Source: a virus. From it: a stretch of 27,634 bases of DNA. The notes under the pieces were generated by a model that did not search any database, had not been told where the DNA came from, and saw only the letters and a list, made by a program, of their open reading frames with translations. The translations under genes were made by a program, and so were the position numbers. The DNA is taken from IMG/VR virus record IMGVR_UViG_3300031669_000193, positions 1 to 27,634 of that record; one strand, given 5' to 3'. Each line of letters opens with the position of its first letter. Position 1 is the first letter of the stretch. This document shows positions 5,798 to 27,525 of this stretch, piece after piece.

Positions 5798-6132
5798 GCA
5801 AGCAGAGAGACAAGCGGGTAGAGGAAGCGGTGGAGAAGGTAAGGGAAATATACAAGGATGTAAACACAGAAATACACGGTCAAGAGCAGGAGATAGAAAA
5901 AGTCAAAGCACTCCTCACCAACCTACTTAACACCCAGACGTCAAGAATAAGGGATAGCCTATTGGAAGCGAAGGAATTACTTGGAAAAAGAATATGCCCG
6001 TTAGACCAATCATCGGAGAATCCAGACGAAGATGTGTGTAGTTGTCCAACGTGCGAGGAGTTTAATGAGGGCGTGATAATCATAGACAACGCATTGGAAG
6101 CCATAACCCCCACGGGTAAAGGAGGAGAGTGA
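5794..6132 (+). CDS. Coiled-coil small protein, 112 aa
   Basis: Residues 1-60 form a charged amphipathic helix with heptad-like spacing (VEEAVEKVREIYKDV, EQEIEKVKALLTNLL). A CPLDQS...CSCPTC segment follows, with four Cys that might bind zinc. It ends in GKGGE, encoded by the ribosome binding site of the next gene. Coupled to both neighbours. No family recognised. Confidence 0.65.
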   Translation: MSKQRDKRVEEAVEKVREIYKDVNTEIHGQEQEIEKVKALLTNLLNTQTSRIRDSLLEAKELLGKRICPLDQSSENPDEDVCSCPTCEEFNEGVIIIDNALEAITPTGKGGE

Positions 6133-8224: not shown

Positions 8225-8730
8225 GCAGCAAGATCCCAGACAGCGAAGTGAGGCGGCGCCGCGCGGAGTTCCGGAATGCGCACCGCTATTGCTGGGCGAT
8301 GCTGACCAAGAGCGATGGGATCTATGTTTGCATGGCCTACTGCAGGACCGGCTACTGGCCGCATCATTTGGCGCGAGGCCGGGGTCGCGACGAGCACGAA
8401 TCGCTGGCGAATTACTATCCACTCGCGGATCCACCGATCGATAATCACCACATGGGATATGCCCACGCGCAGGACCCGAGTTATGGACTGACGGAGCGAG
8501 AGACGCGCCTCTGGATGTTCGCATTTAAGTACTTGATCGGGGAGGCGACGATCGAGGAGATCGAATTCCTGATGAAGGGTCGACGCTGGTGGGAGTCTAG
8601 CTACATGGCGCCAGATATGACGCTGCGTATGGTGATCAATGACCGCGCGTCGGCGCTGCAGCGCAGCGTGAGAAATCTCGATTTTGTTAAGAAAAAGCTT
8701 GCCAGAGGGGGTGATGCCGTGATATTATGA
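8221..8730 (+). CDS. Cys/His-containing protein, possible HNH-type nuclease
   Basis: A 169-residue protein. C24, C37 and C41 are followed by HH at 48-49, N64 (SLANYYPL) and HH at 76-77. The spacing H-15-N-12-H and the sequence PHHLARGRGRDEHESLANYY fit the outline of an HNH endonuclease fold, but the usual zinc CxxC pairs are not both present and the fit is loose. The C-terminal half is helical, Trp-rich and ends in a basic segment. Treat as hypothetical with a possible HNH fold. Confidence 0.45.
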   Translation: MSSKIPDSEVRRRRAEFRNAHRYCWAMLTKSDGIYVCMAYCRTGYWPHHLARGRGRDEHESLANYYPLADPPIDNHHMGYAHAQDPSYGLTERETRLWMFAFKYLIGEATIEEIEFLMKGRRWWESSYMAPDMTLRMVINDRASALQRSVRNLDFVKKKLARGGDAVIL

Positions 8731-12187: not shown

Positions 12188-12508
12188 ATGCCACTATGGT
12201 ACGTCGAGTTAGCTGATTCGTTGCGTAAAGCGATCCTCGCGCTCGGAGAGGCGATCGAGAACTTCAGCACCGAAACGATCAAGAAGCAACCCCAGTTTGC
12301 GGACACGCTCGGGCAGGTGATGCTCCACATTTCTCAGGCGATATCGCAGGTCACCAAGGCCGGAGAAGCGCTCGATGACTTCGTGAAGGACTTCAAGAGC
12401 TGGGAAGCGGATCAGAAGCAAGGCAAGATCCCCGGAACTAGTCCGGAGGAAACGAAACCGGCGCCAAAGAAGGAGAAGTCCGACAAGAAGGAGAATCCAG
12501 TCGGATAG
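12188..12508 (+). CDS. Small helical protein with charged tail, 106 aa
   Basis: Behind AAAGGAGAGTAG. Residues 1-75 are predicted helical with hydrophobic repeats (LADSLRKAILALGEAIENF, MLHISQAISQVTKAG); the tail is Lys/Pro/Glu-rich and disordered. No motif is recognised. It is the last gene before the strong terminator at 12531, so it closes the recombination/replication operon. Confidence 0.7.
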   Translation: MPLWYVELADSLRKAILALGEAIENFSTETIKKQPQFADTLGQVMLHISQAISQVTKAGEALDDFVKDFKSWEADQKQGKIPGTSPEETKPAPKKEKSDKKENPVG

Positions 12509-12530
12509 TGCCCCCACGGCTGGTTCTCTA

Positions 12531-12561
12531 GGGGGAGCGGTTTCTCACCGCTCCCCCGTTT
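12531..12561 (+). terminator. Rho-independent-type terminator
   Basis: A perfect 10-bp stem, GGGGGAGCGG (12531-12540) and CCGCTCCCCC (12548-12557), with loop TTTCTCA, followed by GTTTG. The U tract is short, but the stem is very stable and sits between the end of one operon and an operator-bearing start of the next. Confidence 0.8.
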
Positions 12562-12600: not shown

Positions 12601-13170
12601 ATGAAAGAGCGAGTGATCACACAGCGGCTGCAGGCATGGCTTAAGAAGCGCGGATGGATCGTCTACAAGCCACCGGACACCTACGGCGCCGACACTGTTT
12701 GCCCGACCTGCGTCAGGGAAGGGAGAGACGGGACGCTCTACTGCAGGACATGCGCCAAAGAGATCGAGAAAGATATGACCAGCCGCTTCACGCCTTACAA
12801 GCCAGCCGATCTAGCTGTGCTGCAGAGCCCTATCAGCTGGGGGGGGTGGATCGAGGTGAAGCAGAGCAAGGCGCGAACGGAGAAGGGCATGACGTTCCGA
12901 CCCAAGTACGTCAAGCCACATCAGGCCAAGGCGATGGCGCAGACGGACGGCTTTCTCGCGCTGGCGTTCGTGCAGGAGCGCAAGCCAGAGAAAGAGCAGG
13001 TTATCGGCGTCTATCTGGTGCGCTGGGCCAAGATCATGGAGAGTGAAGTCGTGACCCGGGCTGAGATCCGGGAGCTTGCAGAGATCACGGTCAAGGATTC
13101 GCCGGAGGTGGTGCCAGTGGTTGTGAGGAAAGAAAAAGACCCGGCGTTTGCTTTTATGGATCAGGAGTGA
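12601..13170 (+). CDS. PD-(D/E)XK nuclease with inserted zinc ribbon
   Basis: A 189-residue protein. An N-terminal helix (QRLQAWLKKRGWIVYK) leads to a core with D70 (PADLAVL), E85 and K87 (GGWIEVKQSK), and Q108 (KPHQAKAM), a complete D-ExK-Q set like VRR-NUC or Holliday-junction-resolvase-like phage nucleases. Between the first helix and D70 are two CxxC pairs, CPTC (34-37) and CRTC (48-51), a zinc-ribbon insertion. Its substrate is unknown; branched DNA or modified/foreign DNA are plausible. The start ATG has little Shine-Dalgarno and lies only nine bases after the palindromic motif, so the message may have a very short leader. Confidence 0.75.
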   Translation: MKERVITQRLQAWLKKRGWIVYKPPDTYGADTVCPTCVREGRDGTLYCRTCAKEIEKDMTSRFTPYKPADLAVLQSPISWGGWIEVKQSKARTEKGMTFRPKYVKPHQAKAMAQTDGFLALAFVQERKPEKEQVIGVYLVRWAKIMESEVVTRAEIRELAEITVKDSPEVVPVVVRKEKDPAFAFMDQE

Positions 13171-13176
13171 TACAAT
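13148..13176 (+). promoter_or_regulatory. Possible promoter for the methyltransferase
   Basis: TTGCTT (13148-13153), 17-base spacer, TACAAT (13171-13176), then GGAGGTGG and the ATG at 13193. The -10 matches 5 of 6 positions. It lies in the 3' end of the nuclease gene and would allow separate expression of the methyltransferase. Confidence 0.5.
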
Positions 13177-17869: not shown

Positions 17870-17897
17870 TTGTGCTGAAATGGGCCGGTGATATAAT
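17870..17897 (+). promoter_or_regulatory. Sigma70-type promoter for portal
   Basis: TTGTGC (17870-17875), 16-base spacer, TATAAT (17892-17897, perfect -10), then GGGAGGTCAAGG and the portal ATG at 17922. It lies in the 61-base gap after the large terminase gene, one of the few true intergenic gaps here. Confidence 0.75.
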
Positions 17898-17921
17898 AGA
17901 GCCAAGCAAGGGAGGTCAAGG

Positions 17922-19286
17922 ATGGACATATTCAAGAATTATCAAAGACGGAAGCAGCAAGACGAAGCAGCGCGGCAAATGATGTCCGCGATCGACGGAT
18001 TCATTGACCAGACCTATGGCCGGGGCTTATCGACTGACCGCACCCAACGACTTGAGGGAGGCAAGGGACGCAGAAGCGACGACGCTGTCCTCGGGCTCTA
18101 CCGCAAGAATGGATTCCTCCAGAGGATCATCAACAGCGTGGCGCACGATGCGACGCGTGAATGGTTCGTGGCCACCCCCAAGAATGCAGACAAGAAGACG
18201 GAGAACTTCGACGAGGTGCTGCAACAGGCGCTACTCGATCACGACGTGAAGGGCAAGGTGCGCGAGATGATCAAGTGGATGCGCGTCTTCTCTAAGGGCT
18301 CCGGGATGTTCTTCGGGACGCATCTCGACAACGCGGAAGAGCAGAGGCTGATCGGCGAGAAGTTACCAGATAAGATCCGGAAGGTGGACTATCTGAATGT
18401 GTTCGATAACCCCAAGCGCATTACTATTCAGATCGATAACGACCAGAACCCTACCAAGAAGGATTACAATAAGCCACGGCTTGAGATCGACGGAGAGAAG
18501 GTCCACGAGTCGCGGTACGTCTGGATGGTGAATGAATTCATCGCGGAGGACAAGGAAGGACTGTCCGTGGTAGACACGGTCTTTGACGCCGTGGGCGCGC
18601 AGGACTCAGCGCTATGGAGCGCGTCGACGCTGATGCAAATGCTCTCGCTGCTGGTCTTCAAGAGTGATGCATTCGTCGGATTGCCACCGCACGAGAAGGG
18701 TGATTTCCTCTCCAAAATGAAGAGCTTCCTCAACACGCAAGGTGCCGTTGGCGTTAAGGAGAATGAGGAGTTGAGCCGACTCGATTACAAGTTCTCCGGA
18801 CTAAAGGATATGTTCGATTTCATCTTCGAGAACATGAGTGGCGCCTCGGGGATCCCGAAGAACATCTTGCTCGGCAGGGCGCATGGCGTGATCACCGCTG
18901 GCGAGTTCGACACGATCAACTACTATGCCATGATCAGCCAGTTCCAGGAGAACGTCCTCGAGAAGCCGGTGCGGAAGATCATCGATCTATTCACGCGCGT
19001 CGAGGGCTCGGACCTGCAGAAGATGTCGGGCGGCCCAGGCTTCGAGTACACGCTAGATTGGGAACCGCTGTGGAAGCTGGACCCGGTGTCGCAGGCAGAG
19101 GTCAACGAGAAGAACGCGAACGTCGACAAGATCAACATCGAGACCGGGAAGGTAGCTCCGGAAGAGGCGCGCCTCGAAGATGAAAACGTGAGGCACCTCG
19201 GACCCTTCGAGAAGGAAGACGAGGACAGGACGCAACCGCCGCAGGAAGGCACGGAGGAAGACGATGGGCTACTCGGTGACGAGTGA
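17922..19286 (+). CDS. Portal protein (DUF1073 family)
   Basis: Forms the dodecameric DNA entry channel of the head. The 454-residue protein has the family course: N-terminal LYRKNGFLQRIINSVAHDAT, a middle segment with LSVVDTVFDAVGAQDSALWS and ASTLMQMLSLLVFKSDAF, then IFENMSGASGIPKNILLGRA, FDTINYYAMISQFQENVLEK, and an acidic C-terminus with WEPLWKLDPVSQAEVNEKNA. These match DUF1073 phage portals as I know them. It follows the terminase with its own promoter and a good ribosome binding site. The last ~30 residues are Glu/Asp-rich and disordered. Confidence 0.9.
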   Translation: MDIFKNYQRRKQQDEAARQMMSAIDGFIDQTYGRGLSTDRTQRLEGGKGRRSDDAVLGLYRKNGFLQRIINSVAHDATREWFVATPKNADKKTENFDEVLQQALLDHDVKGKVREMIKWMRVFSKGSGMFFGTHLDNAEEQRLIGEKLPDKIRKVDYLNVFDNPKRITIQIDNDQNPTKKDYNKPRLEIDGEKVHESRYVWMVNEFIAEDKEGLSVVDTVFDAVGAQDSALWSASTLMQMLSLLVFKSDAFVGLPPHEKGDFLSKMKSFLNTQGAVGVKENEELSRLDYKFSGLKDMFDFIFENMSGASGIPKNILLGRAHGVITAGEFDTINYYAMISQFQENVLEKPVRKIIDLFTRVEGSDLQKMSGGPGFEYTLDWEPLWKLDPVSQAEVNEKNANVDKINIETGKVAPEEARLEDENVRHLGPFEKEDEDRTQPPQEGTEEDDGLLGDE

Positions 19287-19530: not shown

Positions 19531-19605
19531 CGCGGAGTGGGCGAACGGTACGCCGCAAGGCTCATAACCTTGAGACAGCGAGTTCAACTCTCGCCTCCGC
19601 TACCA
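19531..19605 (+). tRNA. tRNA-Met(CAU), initiator-like
   Basis: A complete 75-base cloverleaf with encoded CCA. Acceptor CGCGGAG/CTCCGCT with a C1 x U72 mismatch; D-stem GGCG/CGCC with loop AACGGTA; anticodon stem CAAGG/CCTTG with loop CTCATAA (anticodon CAU); variable loop AGACA; T-stem GCGAG/CTCGC with loop TTCAACT; discriminator A73. The 1:72 mismatch, G2:C71, C3:G70, G4:C69 and purine 11:pyrimidine 24 (G11:C24) are initiator tRNA features. The anticodon stem has A29:U41, G30:C40, G31:C39 instead of three G:C pairs, a variant known from some mycoplasma and rhizobial initiators. Elongator Met or a lysidine Ile2 tRNA is less likely because of the unpaired 1:72. Confidence 0.92.
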
Positions 19606-23016: not shown

Positions 23017-23297
23017 GGTACGCAATGATCGCGCGGGAGATTAAAGGCCGGATGGAACCGGTCGGCACGATTGATTTAGATAAGGACGGCTTTTCGTTCG
23101 AGACTAGCGACGCGAAGCTTTCAAGATTGCTGGGCCGTGTGAGGAAGAATGGTCTCCAAGTGATCGGCCCTCCGGGAAGCGAGGGTCCGGGCATTCATGC
23201 GGTGAACGTTATCCAGAAGAAAATCACTGAGGATACAACCGCGTTGCTGGAGCACGAGCTGCTAGTGAATGAATATTACTGGTGGGAGGAAATATGA
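23013..23297 (+). CDS. Small hypothetical protein after MuF, 94 aa
   Basis: ATGA overlap with the MuF-peptidase gene and with the next gene. Alternating beta/alpha pattern (MIAREIKGRMEPVGTIDLDK, GLQVIGPPGSEGPGIHAVNV), acidic C-terminus with WWEEI. No family recognised. Its place directly after a MuF protein with a variable enzyme domain is where an immunity or accessory gene would lie, but nothing in the sequence shows this. Confidence 0.6.
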   Translation: MRYAMIAREIKGRMEPVGTIDLDKDGFSFETSDAKLSRLLGRVRKNGLQVIGPPGSEGPGIHAVNVIQKKITEDTTALLEHELLVNEYYWWEEI

Positions 23298-23767
23298 CGC
23301 TGGCCAAGAAAGATATACTCAGCAAGAAGCGTGAAGTCACGGCGTTGCGCGAGTCGATGATTTACTTCCTGATCAGAGGTAATGATATTGTCTACATCGG
23401 TCAGACAAAGGTTGGTCTCTCGCGTGTGCTAGTCCATGCATCTGACAAGGCATTCGATTCGTTCTTCTCTATTGATTGCCCGGAGGCGCAGCTCGACGAG
23501 ATGGAGTCGCGGTATATTAAGAAGTTCGCGCCGCTGCACAACATAAAAGGTCTTGGTAGCAAACCTCCTGAAAAGGAACGACCGCTAGAGTTGCAAGATT
23601 TCTACACGATAAAAGAGGCGGCAGGACAGCTCAGAGTCACACCGCGCACCATCCTCCGCTGGTGCCATGCTAAGAAGATCGGGTATTTCAAACCATCCGC
23701 GAAGGTCTTTCTAATTCCACGAGACGATATTCTCCGGCTCTTGTCGGGTGAAACCATAAAGGATTAG
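23294..23767 (+). CDS. GIY-YIG nuclease domain fused to excisionase-like HTH
   Basis: A 157-residue protein starting at ATG 23294 (ATGA junction; the frame's GTG 23282 is less likely). Residues 20-85 carry a GIY-YIG-type domain: Y24 (SMIYFLIRG), YIG at 34-36, R44, E71 (LDEMESRYI) and N83 (LHN), all catalytic positions filled. Residues ~102-150 are a MerR/excisionase-type HTH (FYTIKEAAGQLRVTPRTILR, then FLIPRDDILRLL). A DNA-binding domain after the nuclease resembles homing endonucleases or small phage regulators. It is the last gene before the capsid promoter, which it might regulate (inference). Confidence 0.78.
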   Translation: MTLAKKDILSKKREVTALRESMIYFLIRGNDIVYIGQTKVGLSRVLVHASDKAFDSFFSIDCPEAQLDEMESRYIKKFAPLHNIKGLGSKPPEKERPLELQDFYTIKEAAGQLRVTPRTILRWCHAKKIGYFKPSAKVFLIPRDDILRLLSGETIKD

Positions 23768-23838: not shown

Positions 23839-23866
23839 TTGACAGCGAAATGAGCCATGCTAATAT
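23839..23866 (+). promoter_or_regulatory. Sigma70-type promoter of the capsid operon
   Basis: TTGACA (23839-23844, perfect -35), 16-base spacer, TAATAT (23861-23866) with an extended TGC just upstream. The expected transcript start, about seven bases after the -10, falls on the ATG at 23873. The gap 23768-23872 holds nothing else that I can name except partial TTCGCG repeats at 23782-23796. Confidence 0.75.
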
Positions 23867-23874
23867 AGGCTCAT
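23850..23874. promoter_or_regulatory. Inverted repeat over the -10 and start codon (candidate operator)
   Basis: ATGAGCC (23850-23856) and GGCTCAT (23868-23874) are perfect inverted 7-base arms with an 11-base centre. The palindrome covers the -10 box and the first two bases of the ATG. It could be a repressor site. In a transcript starting farther upstream, the same repeat would form a hairpin hiding the start codon. Confidence 0.65.
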
Positions 23875-25141
23875 GACTGTAACGATTACCCGATCATTCT
23901 TCTGTGTTGATGTTGGCACCCTCGAGGTTGTCCAGACTGGTGAAGGCTTCCTGAAAGCCAGAATAACGGTCGCCAAGCTGGGCGTTTTCCCTTACATCGA
24001 AGATGGAGACATCGTCTGGAAGGCAAAACTTCCGGAAGATCTGTTCTCTGAGGAAACCGTGGATAGCATCCGTGGGGTTCCTTTTGTCGAGGACCACCCG
24101 ATGGAGAATGGAAAGCCACTCTTGCTGAATCCGGACAACGCGAAGTTCTTCACCCGAGGGAATGTGTCGGAGCCTAGAATCGTTGGCGATAAACTGCAGG
24201 CGTTAGCAACGGTGACTGACAGGGAGTCGATCGACAAGATACAGCGCGGAGAGAAGCGCGAAGTCTCGATCGGGTTCGTGTTCGACGAGGAGATCCGCAT
24301 GGGCTCCTACGACGGGAAGCCGTTCGAGCGGGTGCAGAAAAATATTCGAGTGAATCATATCGCTCATGTTGAGGCGGGACGTGCAGGTCCGGAAGTGAGA
24401 ATCCATGTAGACAAAAAGGAGTGTATCATGACGGGAGAAAAAGGTGCAGCCGCAGGGCAGAAGGGCAAAGCCACGGACGCCGACAAGACGTTCAGCTATC
24501 GCTTATACGATGGCAGCAAGGACATCAATGTCGACTCCGTCGCGCACACGGAGCTGATGAATCTTCGAGACATGCTCAAGGAGTACGACGAGAAGATCAA
24601 GCAGTTCGAGATGGACGCGAAGGATCAGAAGGGTTCCGACGCGAAGGGTAAGGTCGAGGTTGACAAGGCCATCGAAGAGGCGACCAAGGAGATCCAGACC
24701 AAGCTAGACGTTTCGGAAGACAAGGTCAAGAAGCTCACGAGCGAGCTGAAGACATCGCGCGATGAGATGCCGAAGCTGGTCGCGGAGAAGGCCAAGGTCA
24801 TGAAGCAGCTGGAAGAGGACGCGAGGATCGCCGGTGTGGAGAGCATCGATGGTCTGGACGACCGCCAGATCAAGCTTCAGATCTGCGCCAAGCTCCTGCC
24901 CTTCGCTGATGGTGTTTCGACGGACAGTTTGAGCGACGAACGCATCGGTGCGCAGTACGAGGCAGCGATGCAGATGAAGCGCGAGCTGGTAAACAAGGCC
25001 GATGGCGGGAAGCCTGCTGGTGACTCCGCTGCGGCACTCGACGACGACGCCATCGAGGCGAAGCGCTCGGCGCTGAGCGACGTCTTCGATCGCACCCAAG
25101 AGAAGCTCTCGGGTGACTCCGGAAAAGGAGGTGACCAGTAA
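23873..25141 (+). CDS. DUF2213-type prohead protein (protease/scaffold candidate)
   Basis: The 422-residue protein has an N-terminal domain (about 1-190) with LKARITVAKLGVFPYIEDGD, a PFVEDHPMENGKP segment, VSIGFVFDEE and NHIAHVEAGRAGPEVRIHVD, in the order of DUF2213 proteins as I know them, thought to be phage maturation proteases. The C-terminal part (~195-422) is a charged coiled coil (KEIQTKLDVSEDKVKKLTSE), fit for a scaffold. A single chain with both roles is common in phages. It lies between MuF and the capsid protein, as expected. There is no Shine-Dalgarno: the -10 lies six bases before the ATG, and no later in-frame ATG/GTG precedes the conserved domain. Confidence 0.8.
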   Translation: MTVTITRSFFCVDVGTLEVVQTGEGFLKARITVAKLGVFPYIEDGDIVWKAKLPEDLFSEETVDSIRGVPFVEDHPMENGKPLLLNPDNAKFFTRGNVSEPRIVGDKLQALATVTDRESIDKIQRGEKREVSIGFVFDEEIRMGSYDGKPFERVQKNIRVNHIAHVEAGRAGPEVRIHVDKKECIMTGEKGAAAGQKGKATDADKTFSYRLYDGSKDINVDSVAHTELMNLRDMLKEYDEKIKQFEMDAKDQKGSDAKGKVEVDKAIEEATKEIQTKLDVSEDKVKKLTSELKTSRDEMPKLVAEKAKVMKQLEEDARIAGVESIDGLDDRQIKLQICAKLLPFADGVSTDSLSDERIGAQYEAAMQMKRELVNKADGGKPAGDSAAALDDDAIEAKRSALSDVFDRTQEKLSGDSGKGGDQ

Positions 25142-25635
25142 TGAGCATCATCGAAAAAGGTCTAGAGTCGGAAGCACCCCGGAAGCTCGGCGAAGTGCCG
25201 ATCAACCATCCGGCGCAGTTTGCTAAGACACTGGTCGCTGAAGACGCGGTCGGGTTTGGCCGCGCGGTCATGCTCGGTACGGCTGGTGATCAGGGCAAGA
25301 TCTACGCAGGGGCCAGTAAAGCCTTCGAGGGCGTAAGCGCGAAGAGCTTCGAGGCCAGCGACATAGACAACGAGGCCTACAGCGATGGCGATGTGATGGG
25401 TGTCATCGACGAGGGCTACGTGCAGGTCTACGTTGAGGAAGCGGTGTCCAAGGGTGACCCCGTCCGGGTCCGGCACACAGCCGATACCGGAAAATACGCT
25501 GGTGATTTCGCTACCACCGCCGATGCGGGCAAGACCGCGTTGCTGGTCGGCGCGGAGTTTGCCAGTGAGACGACCGCAGCCGGGATCGCAGCGATTAAGT
25601 TAACCCCGCCGTTCGAGACGACGGACGACGTCTAA
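25141..25635 (+). CDS. Structural cement/head decoration protein 1
   Basis: Behind AAAGGAGGTG, sharing the A of the upstream TAA. The 164-residue protein is beta-rich, with FGRAVMLGTAGDQGKIYAGA, SDGDVMGVIDEGYVQVYVEE, SKGDPVRVRHTADT and an Ala/Thr-rich end. The layout fits the phage structural-cement family that stabilises the shell surface. The next gene is its paralog. Identification is by pattern and position between protease/scaffold and capsid. Confidence 0.75.
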   Translation: MSIIEKGLESEAPRKLGEVPINHPAQFAKTLVAEDAVGFGRAVMLGTAGDQGKIYAGASKAFEGVSAKSFEASDIDNEAYSDGDVMGVIDEGYVQVYVEEAVSKGDPVRVRHTADTGKYAGDFATTADAGKTALLVGAEFASETTAAGIAAIKLTPPFETTDDV

Positions 25636-25651
25636 TCGCTGAGGAGGAACT

Positions 25652-26569
25652 ATGTCTATAATCGAGAGAGCCCTGTTCAACGAGAGGCCGCGAAATGCTG
25701 GCGAAATATCCATCGCCCATCCGTCGACCTTCATCTCGTCGCTCATAGCCGATGGTAAGATCCAGTTCGGCAGAGCGGTGATGTATGGAAGCGATGGACA
25801 GCATGGCGCGAACTTCGCGGGCGCAGGGAAGAAGTTCAAAGGTGTGTCGGCTCGGTCATTCGAGGCATCGGGCCTTGATACCGTAGACGCCATCACCGGC
25901 ACGGTCGGCGAGTACGCAGCGAAGGATATGCTGGGTGTTGTGGAAGAAGGGTTCGTCGCCGTTTACGTGGAAGAGGCGGTTACTCCTACGGATGCAGTCC
26001 GGATCCGGCACAGCCAAGAGGCCAAGAGTTCAGGCTATCAGGAGATCTCGTCTACACCCACGACGTTTGTCGGCGCGACTGTCCCGGCGATCGCGAGTGC
26101 CACTTACGATCTCGACGTGACGATCGACGGTGGAGGTCTGAACCAGCTTGCGGTGGCCATCCTCGTTACGGATGACTGGGACACAATAGCTGCGGCTATT
26201 CAGTCCGCATTGCAGACCGCGACGGGTAACGCAGATCTGGCGGTGATCATCGGCGGGAAGATGCTGGTCACATCCAACTCTATCGGCGCTACCTCGACGG
26301 TTTTGATTGCAGCAGGGACGGCCGGGTCCGGAGGCGGCGACTTGCTCGCCTACATCGATGCGAGTGTGGCGAACATGACCGTCACCATCGAGGCCGCGGT
26401 GCCGGGAAGCGACGACCCCAGCGCGATCAAAGAGCCGGGAAACTTTGCGACCACTTCTGAGGCAGGCAAGACCACGCTGCTGAAGGGTGCCAAGTTTGTG
26501 GGTCAAACGAGCGGCCCCGGACTGGTGATACTGAAGCTCGAGCCGCCAACAAAAACGACGGATGACTAA
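25652..26569 (+). CDS. Structural cement protein 2, with inserted domain
   Basis: A 305-residue paralog of the preceding gene. Both start MSIIE and share FGRAVM, KxFxGVSAxSFEAS, GVxxEGxVxVYVEEAV and the ending NFATTxxAGKTxLLxGAxF ... LKLxPPxxTTDD. Between VRIRHSQEAKSSGYQ (about 130) and the shared NFATTSEAGKT (about 267), the second protein carries ~125 extra residues: YDLDVTIDGGGLNQLAVAIL, WDTIAAAIQSAL, GKMLVTSNSIGATSTVLIAA. This segment resembles a tail-sheath/DUF3383-type repeat, with modest confidence. Strong AGGAGGAAC before ATG 25652. Confidence 0.8.
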   Translation: MSIIERALFNERPRNAGEISIAHPSTFISSLIADGKIQFGRAVMYGSDGQHGANFAGAGKKFKGVSARSFEASGLDTVDAITGTVGEYAAKDMLGVVEEGFVAVYVEEAVTPTDAVRIRHSQEAKSSGYQEISSTPTTFVGATVPAIASATYDLDVTIDGGGLNQLAVAILVTDDWDTIAAAIQSALQTATGNADLAVIIGGKMLVTSNSIGATSTVLIAAGTAGSGGGDLLAYIDASVANMTVTIEAAVPGSDDPSAIKEPGNFATTSEAGKTTLLKGAKFVGQTSGPGLVILKLEPPTKTTDD

Positions 26570-26580
26570 GGAGGCATAAC

Positions 26581-27525
26581 ATGCCCGAAGTATTACAGGA
26601 AGATCTAAGGCAAATATCCAACACGCTGTATTCACCCCGCGAACAGGAGCTAAAGACTCGCCAGCTCCTGCGTATAACGCGTGATTATGACGCGTTTGCG
26701 GACGTGATCGGCTACGACGTCTACGACCGCACAGGCAGCGCCATCGTGCTGGCAGCCGGTGCGGATGCGAAGGACATCCCTTTCGTAGGTGACAACCTCG
26801 AGCGTTTCACGCAGCAGGTCTACACCGTAGCGACCGGGATCCGTTTCACCAAGTCGGAACGCGATGCTGTTGAGTCGCGCAGGCGCAGGGCGATCGGCCC
26901 GGCACCCCAGCTCGACCAGCGGCGCGTGGCAACTGCCCGGCGCTATTGCTTCGAGAAGGAGCACAAACTGACGTTCGCCGGTGACTCTGCGGTCGGCATC
27001 AAGGGCCTTTTCGACGCCTCTTTCTACGGCGCCAACAAGGGCACCAAAGAGGACGTTGCAGAGGGATCGTTCGGCGGGACCGCCGCGCAGAACCGACTCT
27101 GGGTAAACAAGACGCCGCAGGAAATCCTTGATGACCTCTTGCAAGCCAAGATCGTCGTCGAGGACGGAGAGCTGTTCGAGTCGAAGGTGCTGGTGATCAG
27201 CACCAAAGCGAAGAACCGGCTCTTGAAGCCCTATTCCAACACGTCGCCAATGACCACGCTGAAGTGGCTGGCGACTGAGGGGATGTACTTCAACCAAGTG
27301 ATCACCACCAACGTCATGACCTCGACTTACAACGGTGACAGCGTTGATTATTTCATGGTGCTGGACAACGATCCGGAGATCGTCGAGCTGGCCACCACGC
27401 AGGACATCACGCTGCTGCCAGCGGTCTTTGACATGCTTCAGACGTCGAAGCAGGCAGTGATCATGAAGACAGGCGGCCCCATCGTCCGTCACCCGGCAGC
27501 TTTCTACATCGGCAAAGGGGTGTAG
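26581..27525 (+). CDS. Major capsid protein (DUF2184/encapsulin-like)
   Basis: Forms the icosahedral shell. The 314-residue protein has an N-terminal RQISNTLYSPREQELKTRQL and DYDAFADVIGYDVYDRTGSA, a central VDV-like beta region, KEHKLTFAGDSAVGIKGLFD, the P-domain helix (TPQEILDDLLQAKIVVEDG), and a C-terminal LPAVFDMLQTSKQAVIMKTG followed by GPIVRHPAAFYIGKGV. This course fits DUF2184-type HK97-fold capsid proteins. No N-terminal cleaved delta domain is obvious. AAGGAGGCAT lies upstream of ATG 26581. The family usually follows a cement protein, as here. Confidence 0.87.
   Translation: MPEVLQEDLRQISNTLYSPREQELKTRQLLRITRDYDAFADVIGYDVYDRTGSAIVLAAGADAKDIPFVGDNLERFTQQVYTVATGIRFTKSERDAVESRRRRAIGPAPQLDQRRVATARRYCFEKEHKLTFAGDSAVGIKGLFDASFYGANKGTKEDVAEGSFGGTAAQNRLWVNKTPQEILDDLLQAKIVVEDGELFESKVLVISTKAKNRLLKPYSNTSPMTTLKWLATEGMYFNQVITTNVMTSTYNGDSVDYFMVLDNDPEIVELATTQDITLLPAVFDMLQTSKQAVIMKTGGPIVRHPAAFYIGKGV

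Follow-up and report, generated by a model that had tools for sequence, protein, structure and literature searches.

We examined IMGVR_UViG_3300031669_000193, the entire record of a tailed phage (27,634 bases, hereafter the window), and found a sigma-70 type promoter whose -10 element lies inside an inverted repeat at the start of the DUF2213 head maturation protease gene (23873..25141, + strand). The reading that we favour on balance, drawn from this junction and its relatives, is that the capsid mRNA made from this promoter would be leaderless, whereas read-through RNA would fold a hairpin over the same AUG. In particular, the host-type promoter would drive the capsid block, with its RNA beginning at the A of the DUF2213 ATG and being read without a Shine-Dalgarno (SD) sequence; the left arm of the repeat would be missing from this RNA, so that its AUG would be free. 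Read-through RNA from the upstream head genes would hold the whole repeat; its hairpin would take up the -10 into the loop and place the AUG within the stem or against it. Because of this hairpin and the absence of an SD, poor translation would be expected of such RNA. The capsid protease, and perhaps also the block behind it, would be made only upon firing of this promoter. The motifs, their spacing, the missing SD, the predicted folds and the return of both the promoter position and unrelated repeats in relatives were established directly, and from them we infer the transcript start, leaderless translation and repression of the read-through RNA.

The DUF2213 promoter and its surroundings in the window

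The window carries RecT, exonuclease, SSB, ParB-like and methyltransferase genes, followed by the head genes (terminase, portal, Mu F-type head protein, DUF2213 head protease, two cement-type proteins and the major capsid protein). The cement-type and major capsid genes form a downstream block (25141..27525, + strand) in which each gene has its own SD, and which probably shares an mRNA with the DUF2213 gene. The two cement-type genes stand in tandem (25141-26569), and their domain has several further copies in the closest relative. Upstream of DUF2213, the gene at 23282..23767 (+ strand) encodes a GIY-YIG-like N-terminus combined with HTH_17, and its protein is a candidate regulator; the homologue in the closest relative retained the HTH part alone, the GIY-YIG-like part being missing.

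The promoter scan placed the -35 hexamer TTGACA at 23839..23844 (+ strand), followed by a 16-nt spacer ending in TGC, the -10 hexamer TAATAT, six nucleotides and the ATG (23873-23875). The extended -10 covers 23858..23866 (+ strand; TG at 23858-23859, TAATAT at 23861-23866) and forms part of the loop between the two arms of the repeat. Counting 7 nt past the -10, the predicted transcript start is A23873, the A of the ATG, and the preceding base is C; initiation at an A preceded by C is a step favoured by sigma-70. Promoters were scored on both strands with weight matrices, and the site at 23839 scored 16.2 and ranked second in the window, under approximate E. coli matrices, which may not fit the hosts. 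Only one out of 60 dinucleotide shuffles of the full window held any site scoring at least 16.2.

We detected no SD within 20 nt upstream of the DUF2213 ATG, while most other genes of the window have GGAGG-type SDs. A TAA at 23861 is in frame with this ATG, so that no start codon farther upstream is usable, and the conserved DUF2213 domain starts at residue 15-22. Promoter position and SD absence, each on its own, point towards a leaderless mRNA. The sequence-only reading had proposed this promoter, an SD-less start and a leaderless transcript; the promoter letters and coordinates were all correct, the SD-less start was confirmed, and the putative leaderless promoter is strongly supported by its position, the missing SD and the same layout in the closest relative and 20 other SD-less relatives. 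The exact promoter with its palindrome had no match in IMG/VR.

Four high-ranking sites on the + strand combined an extended TG with a gene close downstream, namely genes 8809, 13193, 17922 (portal) and 23873. The promoters of the first two lie at 8699-8728 and 13148-13176, and the homologous junctions of the closest relative also carry promoters. The portal gene has an extended -10 promoter of its own (17870-17922; TTGTGC-16-TATAAT with TG) together with an SD, and the spacer holds GAAATGGGCC. Exact GAAATGRGCC occurred in the window only in the portal and DUF2213 promoter spacers, where it is possibly a shared activator site; the closest relative lacks GAAATGRGCC, and the explanation of the left arm as a mere shared promoter element was therefore demoted to an observation. 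Elsewhere in the window, a strong inverted repeat at 12526-12560 (GGGGGAGCGG...CCGCTCCCCC), located 3' of gene 12188-12508, is probably a terminator, and gene 12601, which comes next, lacks an SD. Finally, the genes at 6129, 6653 and 6901 all have the identical start region AAAGGAGGAGA GTGATG.

The inverted repeat in the window and in the closest relative

The arms ATGAGCC (23850..23856, + strand; in the -35/-10 spacer, at -23 to -17) and GGCTCAT (23868..23874, + strand; spanning the discriminator and the AT of the ATG) form a perfect 7+7 repeat with 11 nt between them and the -10 enclosed, as had been claimed from the sequence alone. Provided that transcription starts at A23873, the left arm is missing from the promoter's own RNA. 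Taken alone, this palindrome is weak evidence, expected by chance in about 3-8% of cases: a 7+7 repeat was present in 8% of shuffles of the local 133-nt region, and, of the remaining gene starts in the loci surveyed, 3% were covered by a repeat of equal quality. The window holds 35 perfect 7+7 repeats whose loops measure 3-15, where 22 are expected. The suggested check for the same palindrome elsewhere was run within the window and returned a single occurrence, even with up to 3 mismatches allowed. An operator of MerR type, which needs a dyad centred in the spacer, was ruled out because the dyad centre falls in the -10. The predicted fold of the read-through RNA reached -10.5 kcal/mol, with z -2.65 in 38 nt and a modest z -1.28 in 81 nt, and the predicted hairpin pairs the AU of the AUG and no more of the codon. 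RNA beginning at the ATG had no unusual structure in the leaderless forms of the window and the closest relative (z +0.6 and +1.05).

The closest relative, and the sole near one in the comparison, is IMGVR_UViG_3300031565_000074 (locus L008, record G001; 46,427 bases). It was reached by an alignment of the window DUF2213 protein with those of two Firmicutes phages, Listeria B054 and Lactobacillus LBR48. No close kin turned up when DUF2213, portal or major capsid protein was searched singly, a search of genome contigs gave no match, a scan with the window and L008 together returned the contig of L008 alone, and the family-wide DUF2213 alignment was too diverse to serve as a query. The two DUF2213 proteins are 39% identical, and about 25 genes were matched between the two records, at 32-65% identity and largely in synteny, with an HTH_17 gene adjoining DUF2213 upstream in the relative too.

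The DUF2213 start of the relative reads TTGACC-16-TAGAAT-AACTGC-ATG, with the -35 at the same distance, a spacer ending in TGC and no SD. Anchored at the ATG and without gaps, positions -34 to -1 were identical at 20/34 sites, versus a mean of 11 and a maximum of 17 in the other upstream windows compared and 8-11/36 farther upstream; CATGCTA, which lies before and within the -10, is common to both. The repeat of the relative (GAAGATGCTCATGC TAGAATAACT GCATGAGCATTTTC) has 14-bp arms with 13/14 pairs, plus one G.U in RNA, and these arms are unlike those of the window; the loop contains the -10, and the right arm takes in the ATG. Its read-through RNA folds at -18.3 kcal/mol (predicted; z -6.3 in 39 nt and z -4.2 in 81 nt). 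Since the repeat is unrelated and yet in the same place, the arrangement recurs while letters, register and loop change. At 30778-30845 of this record (window orientation) we also observed a very strong promoter, TTGACA-17-TATAGT; behind it, TGACTC...GAGTCA flanks a GAGGAGG SD and reaches up to an ATG. Its predicted RNA would lack the left arm, which would make it a gate of the same type with an SD.

DUF2213 loci in other phages and the possible role of the repeat

We fetched 80 DUF2213 loci, with the start sites of the relatives picked by rule, and used 186 other ORF starts from the same loci as controls. All 22 SD-less junctions, the window included, matched a promoter whose -10 stops 6-8 nt short of the start codon. 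Their promoter scores were at or above the 99th percentile of the controls, at most 0.5% of which scored as high (Mann-Whitney p 1e-14), and inverted repeats over the start were stronger than in controls (p 3e-8), though both p values are optimistic, as the rows are related and fall into roughly five or six groups. Firmicutes-type DUF2213 loci have strong SDs, and such a promoter was absent in the 15 SD-bearing relatives of this type that were scored.

The hairpins varied more than the promoter. Besides the closest relative, L013, L020, L015 and L017 had significant hairpins (z -4.4, -3.9, -2.4 and -4.1, respectively), and the hairpin shows a two-sided change between L015 and L017. The group of L037, L026, L069, L032 and L028 kept the promoter and has GTG starts with hairpins weak or lost (z -0.7, -1.3 and -0.4 in L037, L026 and L069); z was -1.7 in L033. 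Thus the promoter is constant, and the repeat is frequent, not universal. Unrelated repeats over the -10 and start were found again in several groups, and the repeat of L012-L024 is a nearly loopless DNA palindrome that would suit a protein as well as RNA. The read-through hairpin proposed over the ATG was borne out by the predicted folds and by other, stronger hairpins in the closest relative and two further groups, but it is weak in one group.

Out of twelve named phages, a clear case was present only in Vibrio phage vB_VpM-pA2SJ1 (L131, OR813779.1), whose DUF2213 promoter reads TTGTGA-18-TATAAT-6-ATG without an SD; a CRP-like sequence, TGTGA-ATTTCG-TCACA, lies just 5' of it (L131 1120-1180). 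In L012-L014, L020 and L026-L037, which make up two otherwise different groups, CGGAAATT(A/G)CG(A/G)CCT is found 5' of the promoter at the DUF2213 start, and GACCTTG is repeated in one of the two. Plasmids searched to identify hosts for L037 and L020 yielded no match, and an unconfirmed guess that these are Leptospira prophages was dropped.

The main rival to the hairpin, also compatible with it, is that the leaderless promoter is real and the dyad is an operator, bound by a phage repressor or the upstream HTH_17 protein, which would block RNA polymerase until late infection; we consider this a possible but less probable account. A dyad over the -10 and +1 occupies the classic repressor position, the palindromes of L013 and L020 are nearly loopless, and HTH_17 genes lie directly 5' in the window, L008 and L010 (the last read from translation), while I-TevI has an operator and a hairpin together at one promoter (PMC2988022). 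Against it, the half-site is single-copy in the window, and arms, register and half-site spacing differ between the window and the closest relative, the one hexamer that they have in common (ATGAGC/GCTCAT) being in inverted orientation; in the other groups no HTH gene was recognised upstream in translations judged by eye. The sequence-only reading had suggested that the capsid genes may stand under an operator; this is possible, but the half-sites are out of register between the two phages and a second copy is absent.

It is unlikely that the promoter is an ordinary leaderless or near-leaderless one and the repeat of the window a functionless product of chance. Repeats of 7+7 are common, and several relatives hold the promoter without a convincing hairpin; however, a much longer unrelated repeat stands at the same place in the closest relative, others occur in two further groups, and SD-less DUF2213 junctions exceed the controls in repeats across the start. 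An unused promoter, with coupling or SD-independent initiation on read-through mRNA accounting for DUF2213 translation, is very improbable, because the upstream gene ends 105 nt from the ATG, too far for coupling, and the geometry recurs at DUF2213 in relatives and not at control starts, even though no terminator-like site was found on the + strand between 23767 and 23839 and the two further SD-less genes of the window (20959 and 14912) overlap upstream genes and so need no promoter.

The putative hairpin-gated leaderless promoter may have a helper in an initiator-like tRNA-Met (CAT) at 19531..19605 (+ strand). In the ARAGORN fold this tRNA has C1xU72, G2:C71, C3:G70, G4:C69 and G11:C24, all of them initiator-like when set against the E. 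coli initiator, but only 2/3 of the initiator-type G:C pairs in the anticodon stem; an elongator identity, read by eye, was dropped in view of C1xU72 and G11:C24. Raised initiator tRNA favours the translation of leaderless mRNA (PMC9031893), so the suggested link between tRNA and leaderless start is reasonable, and the tRNA is possibly a helper of the leaderless message. No tRNA gene was detected in the record of the closest relative, which has the promoter and repeat arrangement, and the device therefore does not require one. A wider proposal, which we regard as doubtful, is that several otherwise distant phage lineages gate the capsid block by a promoter with its -10 in a hairpin loop and its RNA starting at the initiation codon, whereby one set of bases would decide on transcription and on which transcripts are translatable, and that the initiator-type tRNA carried here would further favour the leaderless message late.

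Comparison with known systems

The best-known leaderless phage mRNAs are those of repressors, lambda cI among them, and the best-known hairpin-gated starts are those of T4. For lambda cI, transcribed from PRM, the flanking operators are known. A literature search, largely without subscription papers, returned no report of leaderless phage capsid transcripts.

In T4, the genes e, soc, 49 and I-TevI have a late promoter in or next to a hairpin that buries the start in long transcripts (PMC3014915, PMC2988022); the short transcripts lack the 5' arm, and long e transcripts give 100-fold less lysozyme (PMC3014915). The window resembles these genes in that the promoter's own RNA would lack the left arm and longer upstream RNA is predicted to bury the start, and in that late genes are embedded in longer transcripts. 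However, the T4 promoters depend on a late sigma factor of the phage itself, and an SD is present in the I-TevI-type genes described, whereas the window promoter is of sigma-70 type, its RNA is predicted to be leaderless and its gene encodes a capsid protease. The T4 late promoter sequence TATAAATA was not found in it; by analogy, it can act like the hairpin-gated T4 promoters without being a T4 late promoter.

Lambda cI has a leaderless mRNA (PMC9031893), and the window shares with it a start codon at the 5' end of the transcript (predicted here), a sigma-70 promoter and symmetrical promoter DNA, but cI encodes a repressor and its operators are known, while in the window the operon is structural, the dyad is single and a repressor is at most putative. 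As in bacterial leaderless genes with the -10 directly before the start, the -10 ends 6-8 nt ahead and there is no SD; unlike in those genes, the arrangement is tied to one phage gene and often lies inside an inverted repeat. The cultured Vibrio phage vB_VpM-pA2SJ1 has TATAAT-6-ATG at the same gene, which makes the leaderless half testable at the bench. If the favoured reading is true, it would allow a direct test of whether phages time structural genes through leaderless translation, and the leaderless start and changing hairpins at the capsid protease would merge both known types in a 37-bp device.
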